Of a stretch of 27,204 bases of DNA, positions 6,296 through 20,261 are shown piece by piece. The DNA is from a virus. The notes under the pieces are model-generated. The model was given only the letters and a program-made list of their open reading frames with translations, made no database searches and had not been told where the DNA came from. The stretch covers positions 1 through 27,204 of the IMG/VR virus record IMGVR_UViG_3300045747_000068. The stretch is one strand, 5' to 3'. The translations under genes were made by a program, and so were the position numbers. Within the stretch, counting starts at the first letter, position 1. Every line of letters starts with the position of its first letter.

Positions 6296-7018
6296 ATGGC
6301 TACATACTGGTCGGCACTGGCGGTTGCTAAGCAAGTTTGTGGGGAACTCGGGTTGCCCCAACCGACCAGTATTGTAGGTGTTAACGACACAATCTCTACC
6401 CAGATTGTGTCGTTGCTCAATAGCGCAGGCAACGAACTGCTGACGTACTACCCATGGGAGCAGTTCGTCAGCACGTTCAACGTAGCTACGGTGGGTGGTC
6501 AGGATAGCTACACGCTACCCACAGACTTGGCCTATTTCACTGACCAAACTCAGTGGGATAACACTAATCACTGGCCCTTGTCCGGCCCCAAATCTGCTCA
6601 GGAATGGGCGTTCCTCAAGGGTTCCCTGGTAGCCCCCATTCCTCGCATCCGTTACCGCATAGCTGGTGACTCTCTCAAGCTCTTCCCAACTCCAGGAGTT
6701 GGAGCTAGTTCGTTGTCCCTGAGCATGGAGTATATCTCCTGTAATTGGATTGCCCCCGTAGCAGGTGGCGAGACTAGCATGATTGTACTCGATACGGACA
6801 TCCTACAGTACAACCCTTGGCTGCTGGTCAAATTTGTTAAGTTCAAGTTCTATGAACTCAAGGGCTTCCCCACACTGGGGGTGCAAGCTGACTTCATGCG
6901 GATATTCAATTCGTTGACCGGCAAGGATACGGGCGCAGACAAGCTATCCTTGGTCCAACAGCCCAACAACGCCTACATCGGAGTTGGTTCCATCCCTGAC
7001 GGCAACTGGAATCAGTAA
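6296..7018 (+). CDS. Head-tail adaptor / tail tubular protein, P22 gp4 or T7 gp11 type (240 aa)
   Basis: Predicted to attach below the portal and form the upper tail tube of short-tailed phages. The N-terminal helical part (AKQVCGELGLPQPTSIVG, then ISTQIVSLLNSAGNELL) followed by YYPWEQFVSTFNV and SYTLPTDLAYF matches the pattern of these adaptors, where a helical bundle precedes a beta part. Residues about 115-150 (PRIRYRIAGDSLKLFPTPG) and the EYISCNWI segment are also typical. ATG 6296 starts one base after the previous stop. The order capsid, completion protein, adaptor, tail hub supports the call. The exact subfamily is uncertain. Confidence 0.7.
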   Translation: MATYWSALAVAKQVCGELGLPQPTSIVGVNDTISTQIVSLLNSAGNELLTYYPWEQFVSTFNVATVGGQDSYTLPTDLAYFTDQTQWDNTNHWPLSGPKSAQEWAFLKGSLVAPIPRIRYRIAGDSLKLFPTPGVGASSLSLSMEYISCNWIAPVAGGETSMIVLDTDILQYNPWLLVKFVKFKFYELKGFPTLGVQADFMRIFNSLTGKDTGADKLSLVQQPNNAYIGVGSIPDGNWNQ

Positions 7019-7020
7019 AC

Positions 7021-8613
7021 ATGTTCTTCCAAAAAGCGTCCCCAGCTTTCAGTGAGCCTGTACCGATAGCCGCACCCATTGGCGGGTTGAACGCCAAGGA
7101 CTCCATTGTGGCTATGCCCCAGACCGACGCAATTGTACTACGTAACTGGTGGCCTCAGCCTTACGGTTGTACCGTACGCAAGGGGTTCAAGGAATGGGCT
7201 ACGGGGCTGGGTAGCTTCGTCAACACCATACAAGAATGGGCATCCTCCACTGGTTCCCGCAAGCTATTCGCCTGGGCCGGTGGCAGCATGTTCGACGTTA
7301 CGACCAGCGGAGCCGTAGGTGCCCCAATGCTCACAGGATTCGGGGGTACTAGCTGGGTATGTACTCAGATTACCAACTCTGGCGGTAACAACCTGATTGC
7401 TGTAAACGGCATTGACGACGGCATTATCTACAAGAACAGTGGCGTAGCTCGGCTCACGCTGGGGGATGGTATAGTAGCCAATACGTGGGCGGGTATAGAC
7501 CCCAAGAACGCTAGCCAGGCCATTGTACACCAACATAGACTCTGGGTGGTTCAAAAGAATACCAGCGCAGGATGGTTTCTACCCCCTGACGCCATCCAAG
7601 GTACTTTCCTGAAGTATGACTTCGGCCCGTTGTTCAATATGGGTGGGTATCTCCAATTCCTAGCCACTTGGACCATTGACGATGGTAACGGCTCTGAGGA
7701 CCATCTAGTGGGTCTGAGCTCCAACGGAGAGGCTGTCGTGTATGCTGGTACAGACCCAACGGACTCCACCAAGTGGTCTCTGGTGGGCGTGTACTACATA
7801 GGTGCACCTGTTAGTGGTCGCGTCGGGTTCTGCAAGGCTGGCGGTGACCTACTTGCCCTGACCCAACAGGGTGTAGTATCCATGGCTTCTGAGCTGGTAT
7901 CTACCAAGGTTAACCAAGCCCAGAACCCACTGACGTCCTCCAAGATTCAGTATCTGATATCGAACGCCATTGCTACCTACTCTAGCTACGCTGGGTGGGA
8001 CATCCGTTACTTCCCCAAGATTAACATGCTCTTGGTGAACGTACCGTCCATCGTGTCTGGTGGTACTACACAATTCGCTGCTAACCAATTGACCAACGCC
8101 TGGACTACCTTCAACGGTATGGACGCCTCATCTTGGGGTACGTACAGCTTGAATCCCATGTTCGGCACCTACGATGGTCGGGTCATGAGCGCCTGGACAG
8201 GTAGTCTGGATAGCGTAACCATGGCTGGTTCTGGCGGTACGGCCATACAATCTGAGGTACAACAGGCGTACACGTACTTTGGTCACGCGTCCACTCAGAA
8301 GCAAGTGGGTATGTACCAACCTGTTATGGTGGGTAACTACGCAGTGGCCGTATCTACTGAGATTGAGTACGACTTCGCCAGCACTACGTTGGATGCCCCT
8401 ACAGCTATCAACCCCAACTCTGGCTCTACCTTGTGGAACTACTCGTTGTGGAATACCGCATCGTGGGTTGGCGGCTCGTCTGTCCAGAAGCCATGGTTCG
8501 GTGCTGAGGGTATGGGAATCGCTGCGTCATTGAAGATGATGACCCAATCCAGCGGGGACGTATTGTGGGTGGCAACTAACTACAACCTAGTGAACGGTAA
8601 GGGTGTATTGTGA
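7021..8613 (+). CDS. Large tail hub / tail tube protein (530 aa)
   Basis: A 530-residue protein whose N-terminus (PIAAPIGGLNAKDSIVAMP, TDAIVLRNWWP, TVRKGFKEWATGL) is a signature I associate with tail proteins that follow the gp4-like adaptor in podovirus-type modules. It resembles the P22 gp10 or T7 gp12 position and probably forms a beta-propeller-like nozzle. Repeated Trp/Gly-rich blocks (KLFAWAGGSMFDV, NLIAVNGIDDGIIY, EAVVYAGTDPTDSTKWSLVG) fit propeller blades. The gene starts two bases after the adaptor and its TGA overlaps the GTG of the following acetyltransferase-like gene. Confidence in tail function is good, in exact homology moderate. Confidence 0.72.
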   Translation: MFFQKASPAFSEPVPIAAPIGGLNAKDSIVAMPQTDAIVLRNWWPQPYGCTVRKGFKEWATGLGSFVNTIQEWASSTGSRKLFAWAGGSMFDVTTSGAVGAPMLTGFGGTSWVCTQITNSGGNNLIAVNGIDDGIIYKNSGVARLTLGDGIVANTWAGIDPKNASQAIVHQHRLWVVQKNTSAGWFLPPDAIQGTFLKYDFGPLFNMGGYLQFLATWTIDDGNGSEDHLVGLSSNGEAVVYAGTDPTDSTKWSLVGVYYIGAPVSGRVGFCKAGGDLLALTQQGVVSMASELVSTKVNQAQNPLTSSKIQYLISNAIATYSSYAGWDIRYFPKINMLLVNVPSIVSGGTTQFAANQLTNAWTTFNGMDASSWGTYSLNPMFGTYDGRVMSAWTGSLDSVTMAGSGGTAIQSEVQQAYTYFGHASTQKQVGMYQPVMVGNYAVAVSTEIEYDFASTTLDAPTAINPNSGSTLWNYSLWNTASWVGGSSVQKPWFGAEGMGIAASLKMMTQSSGDVLWVATNYNLVNGKGVL

Positions 8614-9026
8614 TAGACACCACCAACCAGGAAGAACTGGCTGAGTGGTTATGTAGTCGCATTGGTTTACTACCTACTAAAAATCTTCGTTGTATAGGTA
8701 GACGCGGCGCAAAAGGGGATATAATCGGCGTTATTGGCTATGACTCATTCACTAACGCATCGGTTCAGATGCATTCAGCGGGTGAAGGTAATTGGTTGTC
8801 GAAAGAGTTTCTCAGGGTAATGTTCGATTACCCGTTTGTAGTCTGCAAGTTGAAGGTTGTTTACGGTTGTGTTTTGGAGTCCAACGAGAGGGCGCTGAAA
8901 CTCAACTACCGCGTGGGGTTCAAATATGAACACACCCTCAAAGATTGTTATCTTGAAGGTGGTGCCATCATAATGTCCATGAGCAAGGATGAATGTAGAT
9001 ATTTGAAGGAGATACCCCATGGGTAA
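8610..9026 (+). CDS. GNAT-like acetyltransferase (138 aa)
   Basis: A 138-residue protein starting with GTG that overlaps the tail hub stop by four bases. The C-terminal half has the GNAT layout: a beta-rich segment, a helix (FLRVMFDYPFVV), a strand (KLKVVYGCVLES) and then NERALKLNYRVGFKYEHTL, the classic segment in which a side-chain-rich helix precedes a 'GF' strand. The acetyl-CoA loop (Q/RxxGxG/A) is not obvious; GEGN at residue 59 is the nearest match, so activity is uncertain. Codon style looks different from the flanking tail genes, suggesting a later insertion. Its substrate is unknown; phages often carry such genes among tail genes. Confidence 0.65.
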   Translation: MIDTTNQEELAEWLCSRIGLLPTKNLRCIGRRGAKGDIIGVIGYDSFTNASVQMHSAGEGNWLSKEFLRVMFDYPFVVCKLKVVYGCVLESNERALKLNYRVGFKYEHTLKDCYLEGGAIIMSMSKDECRYLKEIPHG

Positions 9027-11100: not shown

Positions 11101-12941
11101 ACGTAAAACTGCCTGATGGCACCATCATCCGAAACGTACCAGAGGGTACGAGTCAGGCAGACCTATTCGCCAAACTACAAGCGAACGGGTATGACGTAGC
11201 CAAACTGAAGGGTACGGCAGAGCACAATGCTCGCGCCGCAGCTGACCTAGCTGCCGACACCAAGAAGTACGCACCTGAGGGTGGCTTCTGGGCCAACCTT
11301 GGGGCTGGTATGAATAATACCGTCCAGGGCGTCAAGCAACTGGTGGGTCAGGGTGAAACTGACGACCAAATCAAAGAGCGTCGGGCGTTGGATGAGAAGC
11401 TGGCCGATAGCACCACGTTAGGTGGTTTGACCCAAATGGGCGGTGAGATGCTCATGAACGCACCTCTCAGTGCTGCTGGCGGAGCCGTTGTAGGTAAGGC
11501 TCTGACTTCCCTGCCTAAAGTCGGCGCTATGCTTACTAAATTAGGGGGCGTAGGGGGCCGCGTAGCTAACCTAGGTACGGTAGGGAGGGGGGCCGTAGAA
11601 GGGGCTGTCGGAGGCGCGTTAAACGCGACTACGGAGGATGAATCGAAGGGGGTAAACTCGGTTATCGGGGGTACTGCTGGAGCAGTAGTACCAGCGGCGG
11701 GGGCTGGGGTATCCAAGTTGGTAAAAGCCTTGTCGAAGTCCAATGCCGGCAACCGTGCCGCCCAGATACTTGAAGAGCAGTTGGGCCCTCAGAATGTGCA
11801 CGACATCAACTTCAAGTTGGATGTACAGCCCAAACCCTCGTTGCCATTGTCTACCGCAGCTACAACTGAGAACGCCACTCTGGCCTCGTTGGAGCGTGGC
11901 GCTCGTGGGCGCAACACGGGAGATATGGGGTTCAACCAAAGCAAGAAGGTCGCAGAGCAAGCGTGGGGTGCTGTCAAGGGTGCGACTAAACAGGCTGACG
12001 AACTCGCTGACCGAGTGACTGACCGCGAAGCCACTATTCAGCTGTCTAAAGACCACCTGAATACGTTTAACAAGCCAAGGGCTTTGGGTCGTGCTCAACA
12101 GATTGTATCCGATACCGCTGAGGAACTGAGGGGTACAACTGTAGCGCGTCAGAACCCAGAGGTAACCAGTACAATCTCTCAGGTGGAGTCCTTGTTATCC
12201 CACCCTGAGCGTACAGCAGGTGACTACGCTAGCCAGTACTGGCGTCTCAGCGATATGGCTAATAACCCCAATACGTCTGCCGAGGCTCGTGGGGTACTAA
12301 TGCGGTTGCGTAACTCGGTACAGCAAGCAGCTGACGAGGCTAGTGGCGGTACCAACCAATTCTCCGACATGGTGGGACGGTTCAAGGTTGACCAGGCTCA
12401 CGTGGATACGGCCCAAGCCGCAAAGGGTGTTCGGGAATCGTTTGTCGACCCAATGGGTGTGGTTAAGGGTTCAGAGGTATTTGGGGATACCCCCACCATC
12501 ACCTCGGCTGCTCTACGCAAGTCTATGGTGAAGAATGGTACCAACGCCTACGGTGACGTGCTGGAACCCTCAACTCGGGGTGCTCTCAAAGACCTTGAAG
12601 GGGAGCTTGTACGCCACGAAATGTGGCAACCCAAGAACTCCCCAGGATTGTCCCAACTGGGCATTGAAAACCCCCTGTCTGTTGTATCGTCAGGTCGTGA
12701 CAATCCGTTCAACTACCTACCGTTGGTGAAGGGGGGAGCTAATTGGCTCTTCAAGGGTTCTCGTCAGGCAACTACCGACGCAGCGGATGCGGCCATGATG
12801 GACCCCACCGTGTGGAAGAAAATGATGACGGACTATGCGGCTAGCAAGTCACCGTTGACCCAACAAGAGTACATGGCTCGGGCGCTGCGTCAAGCTACGT
12901 TGCTACCGGGCAATGCCGTAGCCACCCAAATTGGAGAATAA
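11097..12941 (+). CDS. Large putative ejection protein (614 aa)
   Basis: Overlaps the previous stop by four bases. The N-terminal 35 residues (VKLPDGTIIRNVPEGTSQ, then LFAKLQANGYDV) are a short domain seen at the start of many phage and prophage internal proteins. Residues about 60-215 are Gly/Ala-rich and weakly hydrophobic (GGVGGRVANLGTVGRG, VIGGTAGAVVPAAGAG), suggesting membrane association. The remaining 400 residues are helical, with TTENATLASLERGARGR and a Ser/Asn/Gln-rich middle, ending LPGNAVATQIGE. It is the last and largest of the three-gene ejection block and directly precedes the fibre genes. No enzymatic motif was identified, so the ejection call is based on layout. Confidence 0.65.
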   Translation: MNVKLPDGTIIRNVPEGTSQADLFAKLQANGYDVAKLKGTAEHNARAAADLAADTKKYAPEGGFWANLGAGMNNTVQGVKQLVGQGETDDQIKERRALDEKLADSTTLGGLTQMGGEMLMNAPLSAAGGAVVGKALTSLPKVGAMLTKLGGVGGRVANLGTVGRGAVEGAVGGALNATTEDESKGVNSVIGGTAGAVVPAAGAGVSKLVKALSKSNAGNRAAQILEEQLGPQNVHDINFKLDVQPKPSLPLSTAATTENATLASLERGARGRNTGDMGFNQSKKVAEQAWGAVKGATKQADELADRVTDREATIQLSKDHLNTFNKPRALGRAQQIVSDTAEELRGTTVARQNPEVTSTISQVESLLSHPERTAGDYASQYWRLSDMANNPNTSAEARGVLMRLRNSVQQAADEASGGTNQFSDMVGRFKVDQAHVDTAQAAKGVRESFVDPMGVVKGSEVFGDTPTITSAALRKSMVKNGTNAYGDVLEPSTRGALKDLEGELVRHEMWQPKNSPGLSQLGIENPLSVVSSGRDNPFNYLPLVKGGANWLFKGSRQATTDAADAAMMDPTVWKKMMTDYAASKSPLTQQEYMARALRQATLLPGNAVATQIGE

Positions 12942-12943
12942 GC

Positions 12944-13894
12944 ATGCCTCGTGACGGCTCAGGTAATTATACGCTACCAGCGGGAAACCCCGTTGTTACC
13001 GGCACTATTATTGATGTAAATTGGGCCAACCCTACGCTCTCAGACGTTGCCCTTCAGTTGAACAACGTACTGACTCGCGATGGGTTGCTGCCCGCTACAG
13101 GCCCACTACCTATGGGGGCTAACAAAATAGCCAACCTAGGGGTCGGCTCGTTGCTTACTGACTCAATTACGTTGGGTCAAGTACAAAATAGCACCGTCCA
13201 ATACCTCACTGCAGTTGCGGGTACTAACGACTTCACTGCTACGTTGGCTAGCCTGGCTGCTTACACGGCAGGTCAGACCTTTCGGTTTGTAGCTCCTGCG
13301 GCCAATACGGGCGCAGCTACTATCAACATCAATGGTTTGGGGGTCAAGTCTATCACCAAGTCAGGTGCTGTAGCGTTGGTCGGCGCGGAGATTGCTACAG
13401 GGTCTGTCGTACAAATATCGTATGATGGTACCCAATTTCAGTTGCTAGCTGGCGCTGGCGGTGCTGCGGGTGGGGCTACTGGTGGTGGCACAGACGCGGT
13501 GTTCTACGAGAATGACCTAACCATCAATACCAACTACACCATTGGCTCCGCAGCCTACAGGTCTGGGGTTACCATTTCGTTGACCAATCCTGCGTTGTTC
13601 ACCTTGTCGGGCCACAACCTAGCAGCTGAGATGGTCGTACATTTGAGTACTACGGGTGCGTTGCCTACGGGCTTCGCAGTGGATACCCCATACTACGTGA
13701 TTGCTACTGGATTAACCTCCAGCGTATTCCAATTATCTGCTACCCTCAACGGTACAGGTATCAACGCCAGTGGAGCCCAATCTGGCGTACATTCTGTCGG
13801 CAAAATCAAAAATGCCGTATCTGCTGGCCCTGTTGGAATCGCTACAGGGGTCACTGTCACCGTGCCCACTGGCGCAACTTGGAGCATTGTGTGA
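12944..13894 (+). CDS. Tail fibre protein (316 aa)
   Basis: The N-terminus PRDGSGNYTLPAGNPVVTG followed by WANPTLSDVALQLNN and LTRDG is a virion-attachment module common in tail fibres of phages of proteobacteria. Residues about 80-170 form a repeat-like beta domain (VAPAANTGAATININGLG). Residues about 205-285 carry the SGHNLAAEMVVHLSTTGALP and FAVDTPYYVI segment that occurs in many fibre proteins. The C-terminus (AVSAGPVGIATGVTVTVP, ending WSIV) is a known-looking fibre end motif, so the gene appears complete. It is the likely primary receptor-binding fibre; the next genes provide additional distal modules. Confidence 0.8.
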   Translation: MPRDGSGNYTLPAGNPVVTGTIIDVNWANPTLSDVALQLNNVLTRDGLLPATGPLPMGANKIANLGVGSLLTDSITLGQVQNSTVQYLTAVAGTNDFTATLASLAAYTAGQTFRFVAPAANTGAATININGLGVKSITKSGAVALVGAEIATGSVVQISYDGTQFQLLAGAGGAAGGATGGGTDAVFYENDLTINTNYTIGSAAYRSGVTISLTNPALFTLSGHNLAAEMVVHLSTTGALPTGFAVDTPYYVIATGLTSSVFQLSATLNGTGINASGAQSGVHSVGKIKNAVSAGPVGIATGVTVTVPTGATWSIV

Positions 13895-15715: not shown

Positions 15716-16012
15716 ATGATTTCGCTGTTCTGGTTGCTGTTGCCTTGGGCGTTGGCTTGCGTAGACGGTGGGAGCCGTAAACCCCACCACGTCGTAGCAG
15801 CAGTGCTCGCTTGGCTGCTTGATTTGTTTATCGCTCGGGTGCAGTGGAGGGCCCTCGCTGGCCCATTGCATGGATCGGAGCGTACTATCTCTGACTCGCT
15901 TGAGAGGCTCTGCTGGGATTACCAGAATCCAGATTACGCGTTGTTCATCCAAATAGCCAAGAAGATCAACAGAATCTCCCCAACTCATGACCATATAAAG
16001 GCCGTGCTATGA
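15716..16012 (+). CDS. Small membrane-associated phage protein near lysis genes (98 aa)
   Basis: The first 14 residues (MISLFWLLLPWALACVD) and residues about 25-40 (VVAAVLAWLLDLFIARV) are hydrophobic, giving one or two membrane segments. The C-terminal half is soluble with SDSLERLCWDYQNPDYAL and the conserved-looking end INRISPTHDHIKAV. I recall this end motif in phage proteins encoded just ahead of holin genes, but their role is not known to me. The start at 15716 has only a poor ribosome site and follows the fibre stop by five bases. The stop overlaps the holin-like start (ATGA), indicating coupled translation. Confidence 0.65.
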   Translation: MISLFWLLLPWALACVDGGSRKPHHVVAAVLAWLLDLFIARVQWRALAGPLHGSERTISDSLERLCWDYQNPDYALFIQIAKKINRISPTHDHIKAVL

Positions 16013-16233
16013 GCAATGACGATACGATTGACCGCCGTGACTACGGGCGTATGGAAGCCCAAGTTGAGCAGCTGACCAAGGACGTACACACGCTCAAGGA
16101 AACGGTTGAGACCATGCGGGACATGATGCAGCAAGCCCAGGGCGGTTGGAAGACCGTCATGCTTATCGGTGGCGTAGCTAGTACGGTTGGCGGAGCCATG
16201 GCTTGGGTTCTCAGTCACATTAAGTTTTCATAG
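16009..16233 (+). CDS. Holin-like protein, coiled coil plus one membrane segment (74 aa)
   Basis: A 74-residue protein with a charged N-terminal helix (residues 10-45, MEAQVEQLTKDVHTLKETVE) of heptad type and one membrane segment at about residues 50-69 (MLIGGVASTVGGAMAWVL) near the C-terminus. This matches the layout of XhlA-type or class III-like holin or accessory lysis proteins. It overlaps the upstream gene by four bases and is followed by a DUF5675-type gene. Its role would be to permeabilise or depolarise the inner membrane, or to regulate the second holin-like protein downstream. The call rests on topology and context. Confidence 0.6.
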   Translation: MSNDDTIDRRDYGRMEAQVEQLTKDVHTLKETVETMRDMMQQAQGGWKTVMLIGGVASTVGGAMAWVLSHIKFS

Positions 16234-16241
16234 GGGGCAAC

Positions 16242-16652
16242 ATGAACCTTACAGTAGTCAGAACCATGTGTGGTGCGGTATGCACCATCGGTGAACTCTA
16301 CGTTGACGGGGTTCGCTCGTGCTTTACCTTGGAAGATGTTGTACGATCCGATGGGGAGAAAGTCTATGGAGAAACTGCTATACCTGCTGGCCGCTATCGG
16401 GTGGTTATCACTTTTAGCAATCGCTTTCAGCACGATATGCCTCTATTGGTGGATGTCCCAAACTTTGAGGGAATACGTATCCACCCAGGTAACACCGCAG
16501 TGGATACCCACGGGTGCTTACTGGTGGGAATGGACCGACATGGAGATTCCATCCTCAACAGCCGAGTTGCCTATGCAAGCGTGTTCGCAGACATCAGAGA
16601 CGCCATTGACCGCGGTGAAGAAGTCTGGATTGATGTAAAGGATTTAGCATGA
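16242..16652 (+). CDS. DUF5675-family protein in the lysis block (136 aa)
   Basis: ATG 16242 has an AGGGGGC site. The pattern CTIGELYVDG, CFTLEDVVR, GETAIPAGRYRV, and IRIHPGN followed by DTHGCLLVG is that of the DUF5675 family found in many phages. By eye the IPAGRY...IHPGN...THGC arrangement (His81, His90, Gly91, Cys92) resembles the active-site layout of YkuD L,D-transpeptidases, though more compact. That, with its position between two holin-like genes and the lack of a recognisable endolysin, makes a cell-wall role possible. This function is inference; family membership is fairly secure. A second ORF lies inside it in another frame. Confidence 0.75.
   Translation: MNLTVVRTMCGAVCTIGELYVDGVRSCFTLEDVVRSDGEKVYGETAIPAGRYRVVITFSNRFQHDMPLLVDVPNFEGIRIHPGNTAVDTHGCLLVGMDRHGDSILNSRVAYASVFADIRDAIDRGEEVWIDVKDLA
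16366..16638 (+). CDS. Possible embedded membrane ORF within the DUF5675 gene (90 aa)
   Basis: In another reading frame inside the DUF5675 gene, ATG 16366 is preceded by GGGGAG at seven bases. The 90-residue product starts MEKLLYLLAAIGWLSLL, giving one membrane segment at about residues 4-30 with a positive N-terminus (N-in, C-out). It continues with a Trp-rich and then Ser/Thr-rich tail. The frame is open for 123 codons in all (from 16270). Embedded genes of this kind are known in lysis cassettes (lambda Rz1 inside Rz), and no separate spanin is seen here. It has no coiled coil and no convincing lipobox, so it may be a chance open frame under the constraint of the main gene. Confidence 0.3.
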   Translation: MEKLLYLLAAIGWLSLLAIAFSTICLYWWMSQTLREYVSTQVTPQWIPTGAYWWEWTDMEIPSSTAELPMQACSQTSETPLTAVKKSGLM

Positions 16653-17164
16653 ACTGGACCGACATTCTCAAGGGTATAGCCCCCACCCTAGCCAGCGCTG
16701 CGCTCGGCCCATTAGGGGGTGTACTGGTGGCTGGGTTGGGTAGTGCCATGGGTATTGATTCCCCCACCCAGGACAAGATATCCAAAGCCTTCACTAATGG
16801 GCAATTAACCCCAGAGGCGTTGGAGAAGATACGCGCTCTAGAACTCCAATACCAGAACGATGAGAAAGAACGGGGGTTCAAGTATGCGGAGTTGGAGTTC
16901 AAAGATCGAGACAGCGCACGCAACCGAGAAGTTCAGACTGGTGATAACACCACAAAGTTGCTAGCGTTTATCATTGTAGGGGCTTTTGTGGGTACAGTAG
17001 CCGCTACGCTGGCTGGCTGGACAAAAGCAGAATCGGTACTCGCAGGTACACTTATAGGCTACTTGTCTGCAAAAGCAGAACAGGTATTGAGCTACTACTT
17101 TGGTAGCAACAAGGACAGCAGCAGAAAGACCGAATTGCTGGCTAACTCTACCCAATCTAAATAA
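16649..17164 (+). CDS. Holin-like protein of the three-TM (GTA_holin_3TM) type (171 aa)
   Basis: Residues about 10-33 form a Gly/Ala-rich hydrophobic helix (LASAALGPLGGVLVAGLG). A soluble charged region follows (KERGFKYAELEFKDRDSARN), then two membrane segments at about 103-123 (LLAFIIVGAFVGTVAATL) and 128-148. The soluble ELEFKDRDSARNRE segment and the SYYFGSNKDSSRKTELL end are hallmarks I associate with the three-TM holin family found in phages and gene transfer agents. It overlaps the DUF5675 stop by four bases. It is the best holin candidate in the window. Confidence 0.7.
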   Translation: MNWTDILKGIAPTLASAALGPLGGVLVAGLGSAMGIDSPTQDKISKAFTNGQLTPEALEKIRALELQYQNDEKERGFKYAELEFKDRDSARNREVQTGDNTTKLLAFIIVGAFVGTVAATLAGWTKAESVLAGTLIGYLSAKAEQVLSYYFGSNKDSSRKTELLANSTQSK

Positions 17165-18811: not shown

Positions 18812-19284
18812 CGTAGTGTATCCAAAAATGTGGACGCCTCCATTGTCGGCGGTATGCGGGCGTCCAAATACGCAATACCAGCCCTGACTACTCCCTCCAT
18901 CTTGAGGTTACCCATATCTACCTCGGCTTGGCAGTACATGATAAGCTCCAGCATATCGGCCCACTTGATGCATTCTGCTTCGTCAGGTAGTAGCCCGTAG
19001 TCTATACCCAATCTACGGTTGAAGCTATCCTCCAGCTTCTCCAATGACTCTCTCAACTCTCTGCTGGCCCACTTGGCGGTAGCAGGGGTGTCCCCCGTAA
19101 CTGACTCAGCTAGGTCGTGGGTCAATGCAGAGTGGAGCATCATAGCGCTGGGCTTGCAAATCTCCAGTAGAATCATTGCTACGCCCCAGCTATGCTCGGC
19201 CACATTTTGGGTGTGGATAGTACGCTTGGTGTGGAACCGCTTGGTCACACCGGCTTCGTACAACTCTTTGAATCTACGGTTCAT
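18808..19284 (-). CDS. HD-domain 5'-deoxynucleotidase, YfbR-like (158 aa)
   Basis: The HD metal site is clear: QNVAEHS (His31), LTHDLAE (His56-Asp57) and IKWADMLELIMYCQAE (Asp110), with VTGDTPATAK after the HD pair, as in YfbR-type enzymes that hydrolyse deoxynucleoside monophosphates. ATG 19284 is chosen because it forms an ATGA overlap with the synthase stop and has an AAAGG upstream; a TTG at 19314 would add ten residues but is less likely. Located beside the synthase, it probably removes a host dNMP such as dTMP so that the modified nucleotide is favoured. Substrate is inference. Confidence 0.8.
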   Translation of the reverse strand: MNRRFKELYEAGVTKRFHTKRTIHTQNVAEHSWGVAMILLEICKPSAMMLHSALTHDLAESVTGDTPATAKWASRELRESLEKLEDSFNRRLGIDYGLLPDEAECIKWADMLELIMYCQAEVDMGNLKMEGVVRAGIAYLDARIPPTMEASTFLDTLR

Positions 19285-20261
19285 TTTTCGCGCCTTTCCA
19301 GCCACTCTAGACAAGCCAGCTTGACGGCTGTATCGGGTATGGTGGTAGCGTAACTGACCGCACGAGTGAAGCTACCCTCTTTGTAGCACTTCCAGGACTT
19401 GGCCATGGGTTGTAGCACCCAATTGATGTACGAGTGGTCGTAGCTGCCGTAGTAGTCGTCCATGACTAGGTTGGATACGAACTTGGCGCAATCGCGTAGG
19501 AACGCATCTGCTTGCTCATCGTGCCGAATCAATGGGGTGTGTACCCAAGCCTCGTTGTACAAGTTGGACTTCGGTTCGCTGGGGTGGTCGAGTAGGGGCC
19601 AATGCTTCTCGTAGATATGCCAGTCGTTACTGACTTGGGTGTAGGTACCAATGGGTACGCCTACCGCCAGGGCGATGAATTCCTGTAGCACCGACATGTG
19701 TACGGCGTTGGCCCCGTAGCAGCCCCAAACTACGTCATTGGAGCGATTACAAACTGTCATGTCCAACTTACCCTCACGGATGCGGAAGTAGATGTGGGTG
19801 TTACAGGGTAAGTCTTTGGACCCCAAATTGGCCCCATCGTATAGACCGTCCCACATGGCTACCACTGCTCGGCGCGTATTGTGGTCACGTTGTAGTAACC
19901 CCACCAGGTTTTTCAATTGGTCGGTATCAAAGTGTTTGCGCCAGCGGTATCCGTAGGCGCCATTGAGAGTGATGCCGTCATCGCTGAAGTCGCCCATGTT
20001 GCCTGCGAACTTCTTGACGAACTCGACATCATTGCGACCCGCCAGCATCCAGATGGACTCCATGATATGGAAGTACGGATTGGCATTGCGTTCCTCGTCA
20101 AACAGCATACGCTGAGTCGGGTTTTGGTACACCGTAGATACAGGTGTGGGGTAGGTCTTGACCGACCCGTTGCGGCTACCCTCGGTGGAGTGGTTAACCC
20201 GAAGGTTCCACAACGCATCTGAGTAGGCATCGTTGACGTTATTGGCGTGTAGGACTAGCAT
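19281..20261 (-). CDS. Thymidylate synthase-family enzyme, possible dUMP hydroxymethylase (326 aa)
   Basis: Family hallmarks are present: GAYGYRW (101-107), the catalytic cysteine in DLPCNTHIYF (Cys153), NRSNDVVWG (172-180) with the phosphate- and base-contacting Arg/Ser/Asp, an Asn in the YGANAVH loop (185), and DWHIY (213-217), equivalent to the DxHxY of classical synthases. Asn rather than Asp at the base-recognition loop favours dUMP over dCMP. The enzyme could make dTMP or, as in phages with modified thymidine, 5-hydroxymethyl-dUMP. The presence of a 5-hmdU kinase-like gene nearby favours the latter. Start 20261 has AAGGA; it overlaps the previous gene by 23 bases. Confidence 0.85.
   Translation of the reverse strand: MLVLHANNVNDAYSDALWNLRVNHSTEGSRNGSVKTYPTPVSTVYQNPTQRMLFDEERNANPYFHIMESIWMLAGRNDVEFVKKFAGNMGDFSDDGITLNGAYGYRWRKHFDTDQLKNLVGLLQRDHNTRRAVVAMWDGLYDGANLGSKDLPCNTHIYFRIREGKLDMTVCNRSNDVVWGCYGANAVHMSVLQEFIALAVGVPIGTYTQVSNDWHIYEKHWPLLDHPSEPKSNLYNEAWVHTPLIRHDEQADAFLRDCAKFVSNLVMDDYYGSYDHSYINWVLQPMAKSWKCYKEGSFTRAVSYATTIPDTAVKLACLEWLERREK

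Follow-up and report, generated by a model that had tools for sequence, protein, structure and literature searches.

A DUF5675 protein in a phage lysis block as a probable endolysin with a YkuD-like fold

The locus described here raises the question of which gene product opens the host cell wall. The window, meaning the whole stretch of DNA analysed, is the 27,204-base virus record IMGVR_UViG_3300045747_000068. Because the completeness of this record is unstated, a lysin lying beyond the window is possible. The + strand carries head and tail genes followed by genes for small membrane proteins, and the - strand carries DNA-metabolism genes. On the - strand, a block at 17481-27190 matches the Pfam families of 5-hmdU DNA kinase (helical and HMUD1 domains), of the amino acid:DNA transferase ADDT and of thymidylate synthase (19281-20261), and from these matches appears to be a thymidine-hypermodification gene set. 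Within the structural block of the + strand, an acyl-CoA N-acyltransferase-like gene occupies 8610-9026 (phrog_4470, E 5.1e-32). A sequence-only reading had proposed that a DUF5675 gene at 16242-16652, lying between two holin-like genes in a block without a known endolysin, encodes a compact cell-wall enzyme. The features of this region are:

15716..16012, + strand: small 98-aa protein with one TM-like stretch by hydropathy (19-residue mean 1.75)
16009..16233, + strand: 74-aa protein with a coiled-coil-like N-terminus (by reading) and a TM-like stretch at residues 50-68; holin/XhlA-like in layout only
16232..16237, + strand: AGGGGG, ribosome-binding-site-like, 4 nt before the ATG start codon of the DUF5675 gene (read from the sequence)
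16242..16652, + strand: DUF5675 protein, 136 aa, putative YkuD-fold cysteine endolysin (PF18925, E 1.4e-30; AlphaFold2 pLDDT 95.8; YkuD fold Z up to 9.9)
16380..16397, + strand: IPAGRY motif, residues 47-52 (sequence and 129-row alignment)
16479..16493, + strand: IHPGN motif with invariant His81 (129/129), putative general base
16503..16517, + strand: DTHGC motif with Cys92 (128/129), putative nucleophile; the single exception, L133, looks frameshifted
16649..17164, + strand: 171-aa membrane protein, holin-like (phrog_1544, E 3.7e-16; TM-like peak 2.39); downstream edge of the endolysin slot in the slot test

The 136-aa protein belongs to DUF5675, matching PF18925 in the Pfam scan with 105.9 bits against a gathering cut-off of 26.7. 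It also matches phrog_1501, a PHROG with no assigned function, and nothing in NCBIfam at E up to 1. No stretch reaches the TM threshold (best 1.34 versus 1.6), and no secretion signal is evident. The 74-aa gene stops 8 bases ahead of this ORF and the start of the 171-aa gene overlaps its stop by 4 bases; given this spacing, the three genes look co-transcribed. The flanking genes are holin-like by hydropathy, with one stretch over threshold in the 74-aa protein and a strong one in the 171-aa protein, but neither belongs to a named holin family, and the 74-aa protein has weak family matches only (Pfam, PHROGs). Homologues of the 98-aa protein occur in loci L016, L019 and L225, and in some relatives lie near lysis genes.

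The first property to be considered is the fold. The AlphaFold2 model, built from 110 sequences, has a pTM of 0.89. VIA-align was run over the top 1000 Foldseek chains, of which 993 aligned. YkuD-fold enzymes account for 43 of the 44 PDB entries listed, representing about 11 distinct proteins at Z 7.5-9.9, with the remaining row at Z 2.1. The top match is Campylobacter Pgp2 (111 residues, rmsd 2.7), followed by LdtMt1 (Z 9.1), DpaA (Z 9.0, 111 residues), LdtMt2 (Z 8.8), Tlde1a (Z 8.7) and YkuD (Z 8.6). As Z differences within 1 unit are ties, Pgp2, LdtMt1 and DpaA are tied and the fold does not rank hydrolase against transpeptidase. Best Z values of 7-8 are usual when a model lacks a clear Foldseek match; the gap between 7.5 and 2.1, together with the near full-length aligned ranges, makes a shared YkuD fold likely.

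VIA-align was the only method to see this fold, which was missed by sequence-only searches and by Foldseek. Foldseek against the PDB returned no match with E < 0.001 and no L,D-transpeptidase among the 50 rows listed. A phmmer search of PDB chains had no match up to E 10, and hmmsearch with the 110-row profile gave three matches only, all chance-like (E 0.85-1.8). The PF03734 sequence model does not match the 136-aa protein, for which PF18925 is the sole Pfam match at E up to 1. In BFVD, 13 matches were obtained at E up to 0.001; four are named, three as DUF5675 and one as "L,D-carboxypeptidase/transpeptidase". Profile-profile alignment with 13 YkuD domains places His on His and Cys on Cys at a low hhalign probability (9.6%), with a raw score of 25.07 that was reached by none of 100 column shuffles. 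A YafK-like profile of three rows likewise aligns the His and Cys and sets IPAGRY on VPEGFY; this profile is weaker evidence than the YkuD profile, with 1 of 100 shuffles scoring as high. Taken together, the model and its comparisons suggest that the DUF5675 protein very likely folds like the YkuD-class bacterial cell-wall enzymes. The sequence-only reading had looked to structure prediction for such a comparison, and the outcome is a YkuD-like rather than an unrelated fold.

The motifs on which that reading was built, IPAGRY, IHPGN and DTHGC in the order of YkuD enzymes, are indeed present and are read directly as I47-P-A-G-R-Y52, I80-H81-P-G-N84 and D88-T-H-G-C92. Homologues were collected from IMG/VR (8 loci; best 80 of 581) and from GTDB genomes (54 loci), giving an alignment of 129 sequences, query included, after duplicates and short pieces were dropped. 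Most DUF5675 homologues among those listed are stand-alone ORFs of about 130-150 aa. H81 and G91 are present in all 129 sequences and C92 in 128, and these three positions lie outside the homologue search patterns. Also invariant are I47, Y52, Arg35, Lys40 and Thr45, and Glu31/Asp32 are kept in 128 of 128, P48 in 125, G50 in 128, G83 in 127 and N84 in 126 of 129; the invariance of K40, T45, I47, P48 and E31/D32/R35 is partly selected, because these positions are partly forced by the search patterns. Motif conservation exceeds chance. The "THGC" element is conserved at Gly91 and Cys92, but His90 occurs in only 14 of 129 sequences, with Glu in 68, and the family motif is better written [ST]-x-G-C. 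From this pattern of conservation, Cys92 and His81 are proposed as the catalytic pair.

Genomic position is the stronger argument. Across loci, DUF5675 genes sit in lysis cassettes. Among 50 viral DUF5675 loci, 47 have a small TM protein within two same-strand genes, against a baseline of 25.8% for 120 genes of the same loci, and 22 have small TM proteins on both sides, against a baseline of 2.5%. These counts use simple hydropathy and home-made gene calls; duplicates, genes missed by the caller (23/137, all collections) and loci lacking two same-strand genes per side were dropped. Of the 64 loci that have 1.5 kb of downstream sequence, 24 contain in it an ORF with a lipobox of the kind found in Rz1 o-spanins, against 3 of 353 windows; four of the 24 are doubtful on reading (L036, L037, L076 and L088), and L016/L017, L057/L074, L047/L085 and L084/L089 are near-duplicate pairs. 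The window itself yielded no convincing spanin-like lipoprotein in the neighbourhood of the DUF5675 gene.

Individual records illustrate this arrangement. In MW202455 (complete, 44 kb), the order is papain-like amidase, holin-like protein, second membrane protein, DUF5675, Rz-like coiled-coil protein and Rz1-like lipoprotein, with all names other than amidase and DUF5675 assigned by reading. The amidase, three genes upstream of DUF5675, counts against the endolysin reading. In the microvirus Dulem virus 260 (6.4 kb; L144 3650-4254), the DUF5675 gene shares 4 bases with a 71-aa gene, the start of which is TM- and lipobox-like. A 315-aa ORF (L004 8001-8948; the same contig as L045 10001-10948) joins DUF5675 in frame to a 196-aa spanin-like tail with TM and lipobox. 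A close structural relative of the window, L225, has a counterpart of the window's 614-aa protein at 67% identity. At 12141-13424 it carries membrane and nested Rz/Rz1-like genes, as judged by reading, and the 98-aa gene and two membrane genes are also present. There is no DUF5675 in this 22.7-kb record, and no Pfam lysin was found in 21 proteins scanned from 16 kb of it, which likewise counts against the endolysin reading.

The gene downstream of DUF5675 allows the slot to be compared across phages. With the 171-aa phrog_1544 gene as anchor, 45 viral relatives were collected (14 found first), the first or second gene upstream of each was read, and candidates were scanned against Pfam. For ten slot proteins, the assignment comes from 97-100% identity to a scanned protein; several of the 45 loci are therefore near-duplicates. 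A canonical wall hydrolase occupies the slot in 30 of 45 loci: Peptidase_M15_3 in 12, Phage_lysozyme GH24 in 7, Peptidase_M15_4 in 5 (L200 below cut-off), GH19 in 3, GH108 in 2 and muramidase in 1. The hydrolase is the second gene upstream, not the first, in L189, L207 and L216-L218. DUF5675 takes the place of these canonical endolysins in three loci (L197, L209 and L214). The remaining 12 slots are unassigned or truncated (L149, L160, L181, L182, L187, L188, L191, L192, L198, L199, L208 and L220); L182 has a GH24 gene further up, as seen in L148, and an M15 gene is found when L188 and L220 are searched as whole records. An assignment of the L149 slot protein as lambda-R-like was dropped, as it had no Pfam support. 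Unrelated wall-hydrolase families thus alternate in one slot, with DUF5675 among the occupants, as in the window.

In the window, the absence of a known endolysin from the block is borne out: none of the Pfam lysin families was matched by 10 window proteins (E up to 1) or by another 32 distinct ORFs (E up to 0.001). The product of the + strand gene at 7021-8613, which directly follows a tail gene (6296-7018), matches phrog_5107 "amidase/lysis" and was considered as a rival endolysin. It has no Pfam lysin match and no PDB sequence match. Its homologues, in the 15 of 21 records that were listed, are named stabilization, head closure, structural, p52, gp25 or hypothetical, with "amidase" in four RefSeq copies and one record without annotation. 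The "amidase" label looks like a propagated misannotation, and the candidate was set aside on these grounds.

Seven canonical lysin families were also searched for in 49 whole records, all of them at least 30 kb long except one of 29,978 bases. In the 36 records with DUF5675 and the 13 others, respectively, GH24 occurs in none and two, M15_3 in none and seven, and M15_4 in none and three. GH108 occurs in one of the 36, as a partial match about 9 kb from the DUF5675 gene, and in none of the 13. Amidase_2 (PF01510) is found in none of the 49, while control genomes gave matches; muramidase and GH19 (PF11860, PF00182) are found in 0/36 and 0/13, with the controls silent too, so that their absence is not shown by these searches. 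In sum, tested canonical lysins occur in 1 of 36 DUF5675 records versus 12 of 13 others (Fisher 1.8e-9), a contrast rather than a random sample, as the 13 controls were found via the gene beside the endolysin slot, and one drawn from searches that omitted CHAP, NlpC/P60, M23, GH25 and SLT in records that may be fragments. A canonical endolysin elsewhere in the genome, which the sequence-only reading regarded as evidence against its proposal, is therefore missing for the tested families in 35 of 36 DUF5675 records and present in one as the partial GH108 match; crAss001 carries a second annotated peptidoglycan hydrolase.

The fold and the location, being those of cell-wall enzymes and of the place where phages keep their host-bursting enzyme, make an overlooked lysis enzyme probable. 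The DUF5675 gene is thus likely to encode a phage endolysin, a single-domain, 136-aa, YkuD-fold cysteine peptidoglycan hydrolase. The earlier proposal of a compact YkuD-like cell-wall enzyme in an endolysin slot gains support from the fold comparison, the His/Cys register, and the slot and cassette evidence.

The chemistry of such an enzyme is a separate matter, since LD-transpeptidase, LD-carboxypeptidase and LD-endopeptidase activities are all recorded for the YkuD family (PMC12729407). In transpeptidases, an Arg is reported two residues after the catalytic Cys, and this Arg is reportedly absent in LD-carboxypeptidases and DpaA (PMC8263019). In DUF5675, the Cys+2 position is Leu in 115, Ile in 12, Ala in 1 and Gly in 1 of the 129 sequences and Arg in none, which favours a hydrolase over a transpeptidase. 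By this rule, the choice between hydrolase and TRANSPEPTIDASE falls, with the greater likelihood, to the hydrolase. There are exceptions to it: in the Mtb transpeptidase LdtMt2 this position is Asn, and Val or Ala is found there in some of the PF03734 domains fetched. The L,D-transpeptidase parallel drawn from the motifs therefore extends to the YkuD fold and the His/Cys register but not to the transpeptidase Arg, and hydrolysis is likelier.

These data also bear on three other functions. A true L,D-transpeptidase, making 3-3 cross-links or swapping D-amino acids, would alter the wall rather than lyse it. Such an enzyme would fit the fold, for which Mtb L,D-transpeptidases score Z 7.8-9.1, the names given to homologues in crAss-like phages in GenBank, and the precedent of LdtMt2; it is unlikely given the replacement of the Arg throughout the alignment and a slot otherwise held by hydrolase families. 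Alternatively, the protein could be a DpaA-like accessory enzyme that cuts outer-membrane tethers off peptidoglycan and aids the spanins, with another protein as endolysin. This would fit the Rz1-like genes often found downstream (24/64 loci), and DpaA is both among the fold matches and devoid of the Arg; the match of IPAGRY to the YafK-like VPEGFY points the same way, with the shuffle result given above. The interchange with muramidases and M15 peptidases in one slot and the near absence of tested lysin families from DUF5675 records argue against an accessory role, and many hosts, such as Bacteroidota, are not known to have Braun's lipoprotein. A DpaA-like function is accordingly unlikely.

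The top fold match, Pgp2, is an LD-carboxypeptidase, tied within 1 Z unit with others, and a carboxypeptidase could trim stem peptides during infection, for example hindering superinfection, without being a lysis gene. The consistent neighbourhood of membrane and spanin-like genes and the replacement of lysins in the slot speak against this function, which is very unlikely.

For the endolysin, a pathway can be outlined. From the computed features (the fold, the conserved Cys and His, the cassette position and the interchange with canonical endolysins), we infer release by the membrane neighbours, catalysis, hydrolysis rather than transpeptidation on account of the missing Arg, and the bond attacked. 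The DUF5675 protein, which has no evident secretion signal, would wait in the cytoplasm until one or both flanking small membrane proteins open the inner membrane, allowing it to reach the wall. There, Cys92, activated by His81, would attack, within the stem peptide, the peptide carbonyl adjacent to meso-diaminopimelate. The likeliest target would be the L,D bond between diaminopimelate and D-Ala in cross-linked stems, and the resulting thioester would be resolved by water, such that cross-links are cut and not made. By established peptidoglycan chemistry, breaking this bond in a stem that is 4-3 cross-linked would at the same time undo the cross-link.

More broadly, it is possible, if somewhat short of an even chance, that DUF5675 constitutes a widespread class of endolysins with a chemistry of its own, that of a YkuD-fold cysteine L,D-endopeptidase acting at diaminopimelate. 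This class would span diverse tailed phages (crAss-like, Mu-like, Vibrio and podo-like) and ssDNA microviruses, in which it would form a two-gene lysis unit with an overlapping small lipoprotein-like gene. Of 50,697 phage records, roughly 200 contain DUF5675, with 197 matches at E up to 0.001. If the assignment is correct, a family with no assigned function in these records becomes a recognised lysis enzyme, and a likely endolysin can be named for crAss-like phages, Vibrio phages and others. Should the chemistry also be right, this would be an endolysin type built on a fold mainly known for wall building or trimming, and with a bond specificity unlike that of muramidases. Weak DUF5675 matches (E about 0.01) are also found in Helicobacter pylori phages, for example NC_019928 (KHP30) and LC767349 (KHP40), with two listed records annotated as DUF5675 family protein.

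An endolysin of this kind has already been hinted at in print for one phage. For Vibrio phage Martha 12B12, synteny was taken to suggest that the endolysin is a soluble protein whose HHpred similarity to L,D-transpeptidase is weak (mBio 2022 Mu lysis paper, PMC9239132). In this phage, VPCG_00031, four genes from DUF2730, is a DUF5675 gene with IPEGTY, IHK and EGC motifs, and no other lysin is named among the product names of the 51 features in the record. Two genes past it lies a gene for a 196-aa membrane protein, which resembles the window's 171-aa protein by eye only. VPCG_00031 is thus presumably the protein meant. In the accessible text of that paper, the proposal names neither the gene nor DUF5675 and is not generalised across the family (PMC9239132). 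New here are the extension of the argument to the whole family, the replacement of lysins in the slot and the absence of the transpeptidase Arg. Where DUF5675 is named in the accessible parts of the literature searched, no function is attached to it. The R21Y and Virtus papers place DUF5675 beside an ORF with a TM helix; in their accessible main texts, "lysozyme" and "holin" do not appear and no endolysin gene was seen.

In GenBank, homologues from crAss-like phages carry the names "L,D-carboxypeptidase/transpeptidase" or "putative transpeptidase", and nothing in the literature searched joins crAss-like phages with transpeptidase. The crAss001 protein gp30 is a DUF5675 homologue (36.6% identity) encoded near lysis regulatory protein and holin genes, with a function given by annotation only. 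That phage differs from the window in also having gp89, a "glycoside hydrolase/peptidoglycan hydrolase", and a CHAP-annotated tail protein. The crAss001 paper counts three genes for lytic functions, which are left unnamed in its accessible text, and its main text does not contain "peptidase", "endolysin", "holin" or "transpeptidase" (PMC6235969).

YkuD has been counted among the catalytic domains of phage lytic proteins in PhaLP, with 10 entries (PMC8310338), and a gut endolysin survey reports one YkuD-domain protein (PMC13284279). The PhaLP domains are PF03734, PF10908 or cd16913, unlike DUF5675, which is named in the accessible text of neither source. The LD-carboxypeptidases Pgp2 and Csd6 and DpaA share with DUF5675 the YkuD fold (Pgp2 Z 9.9, DpaA Z 9.0), the conserved Cys and His, and the lack of Arg at Cys+2 (PMC8263019). 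These three are bacterial housekeeping enzymes, whereas DUF5675 is found in phage lysis cassettes, has no TM or signal stretch over threshold and does not match PF03734. Canonical endolysins (GH24, M15, GH108, muramidase and GH19) occupy the same slot near phrog_1544 and belong to Pfam families unrelated to DUF5675. They cut other bonds, either in the glycan or elsewhere in the peptide.
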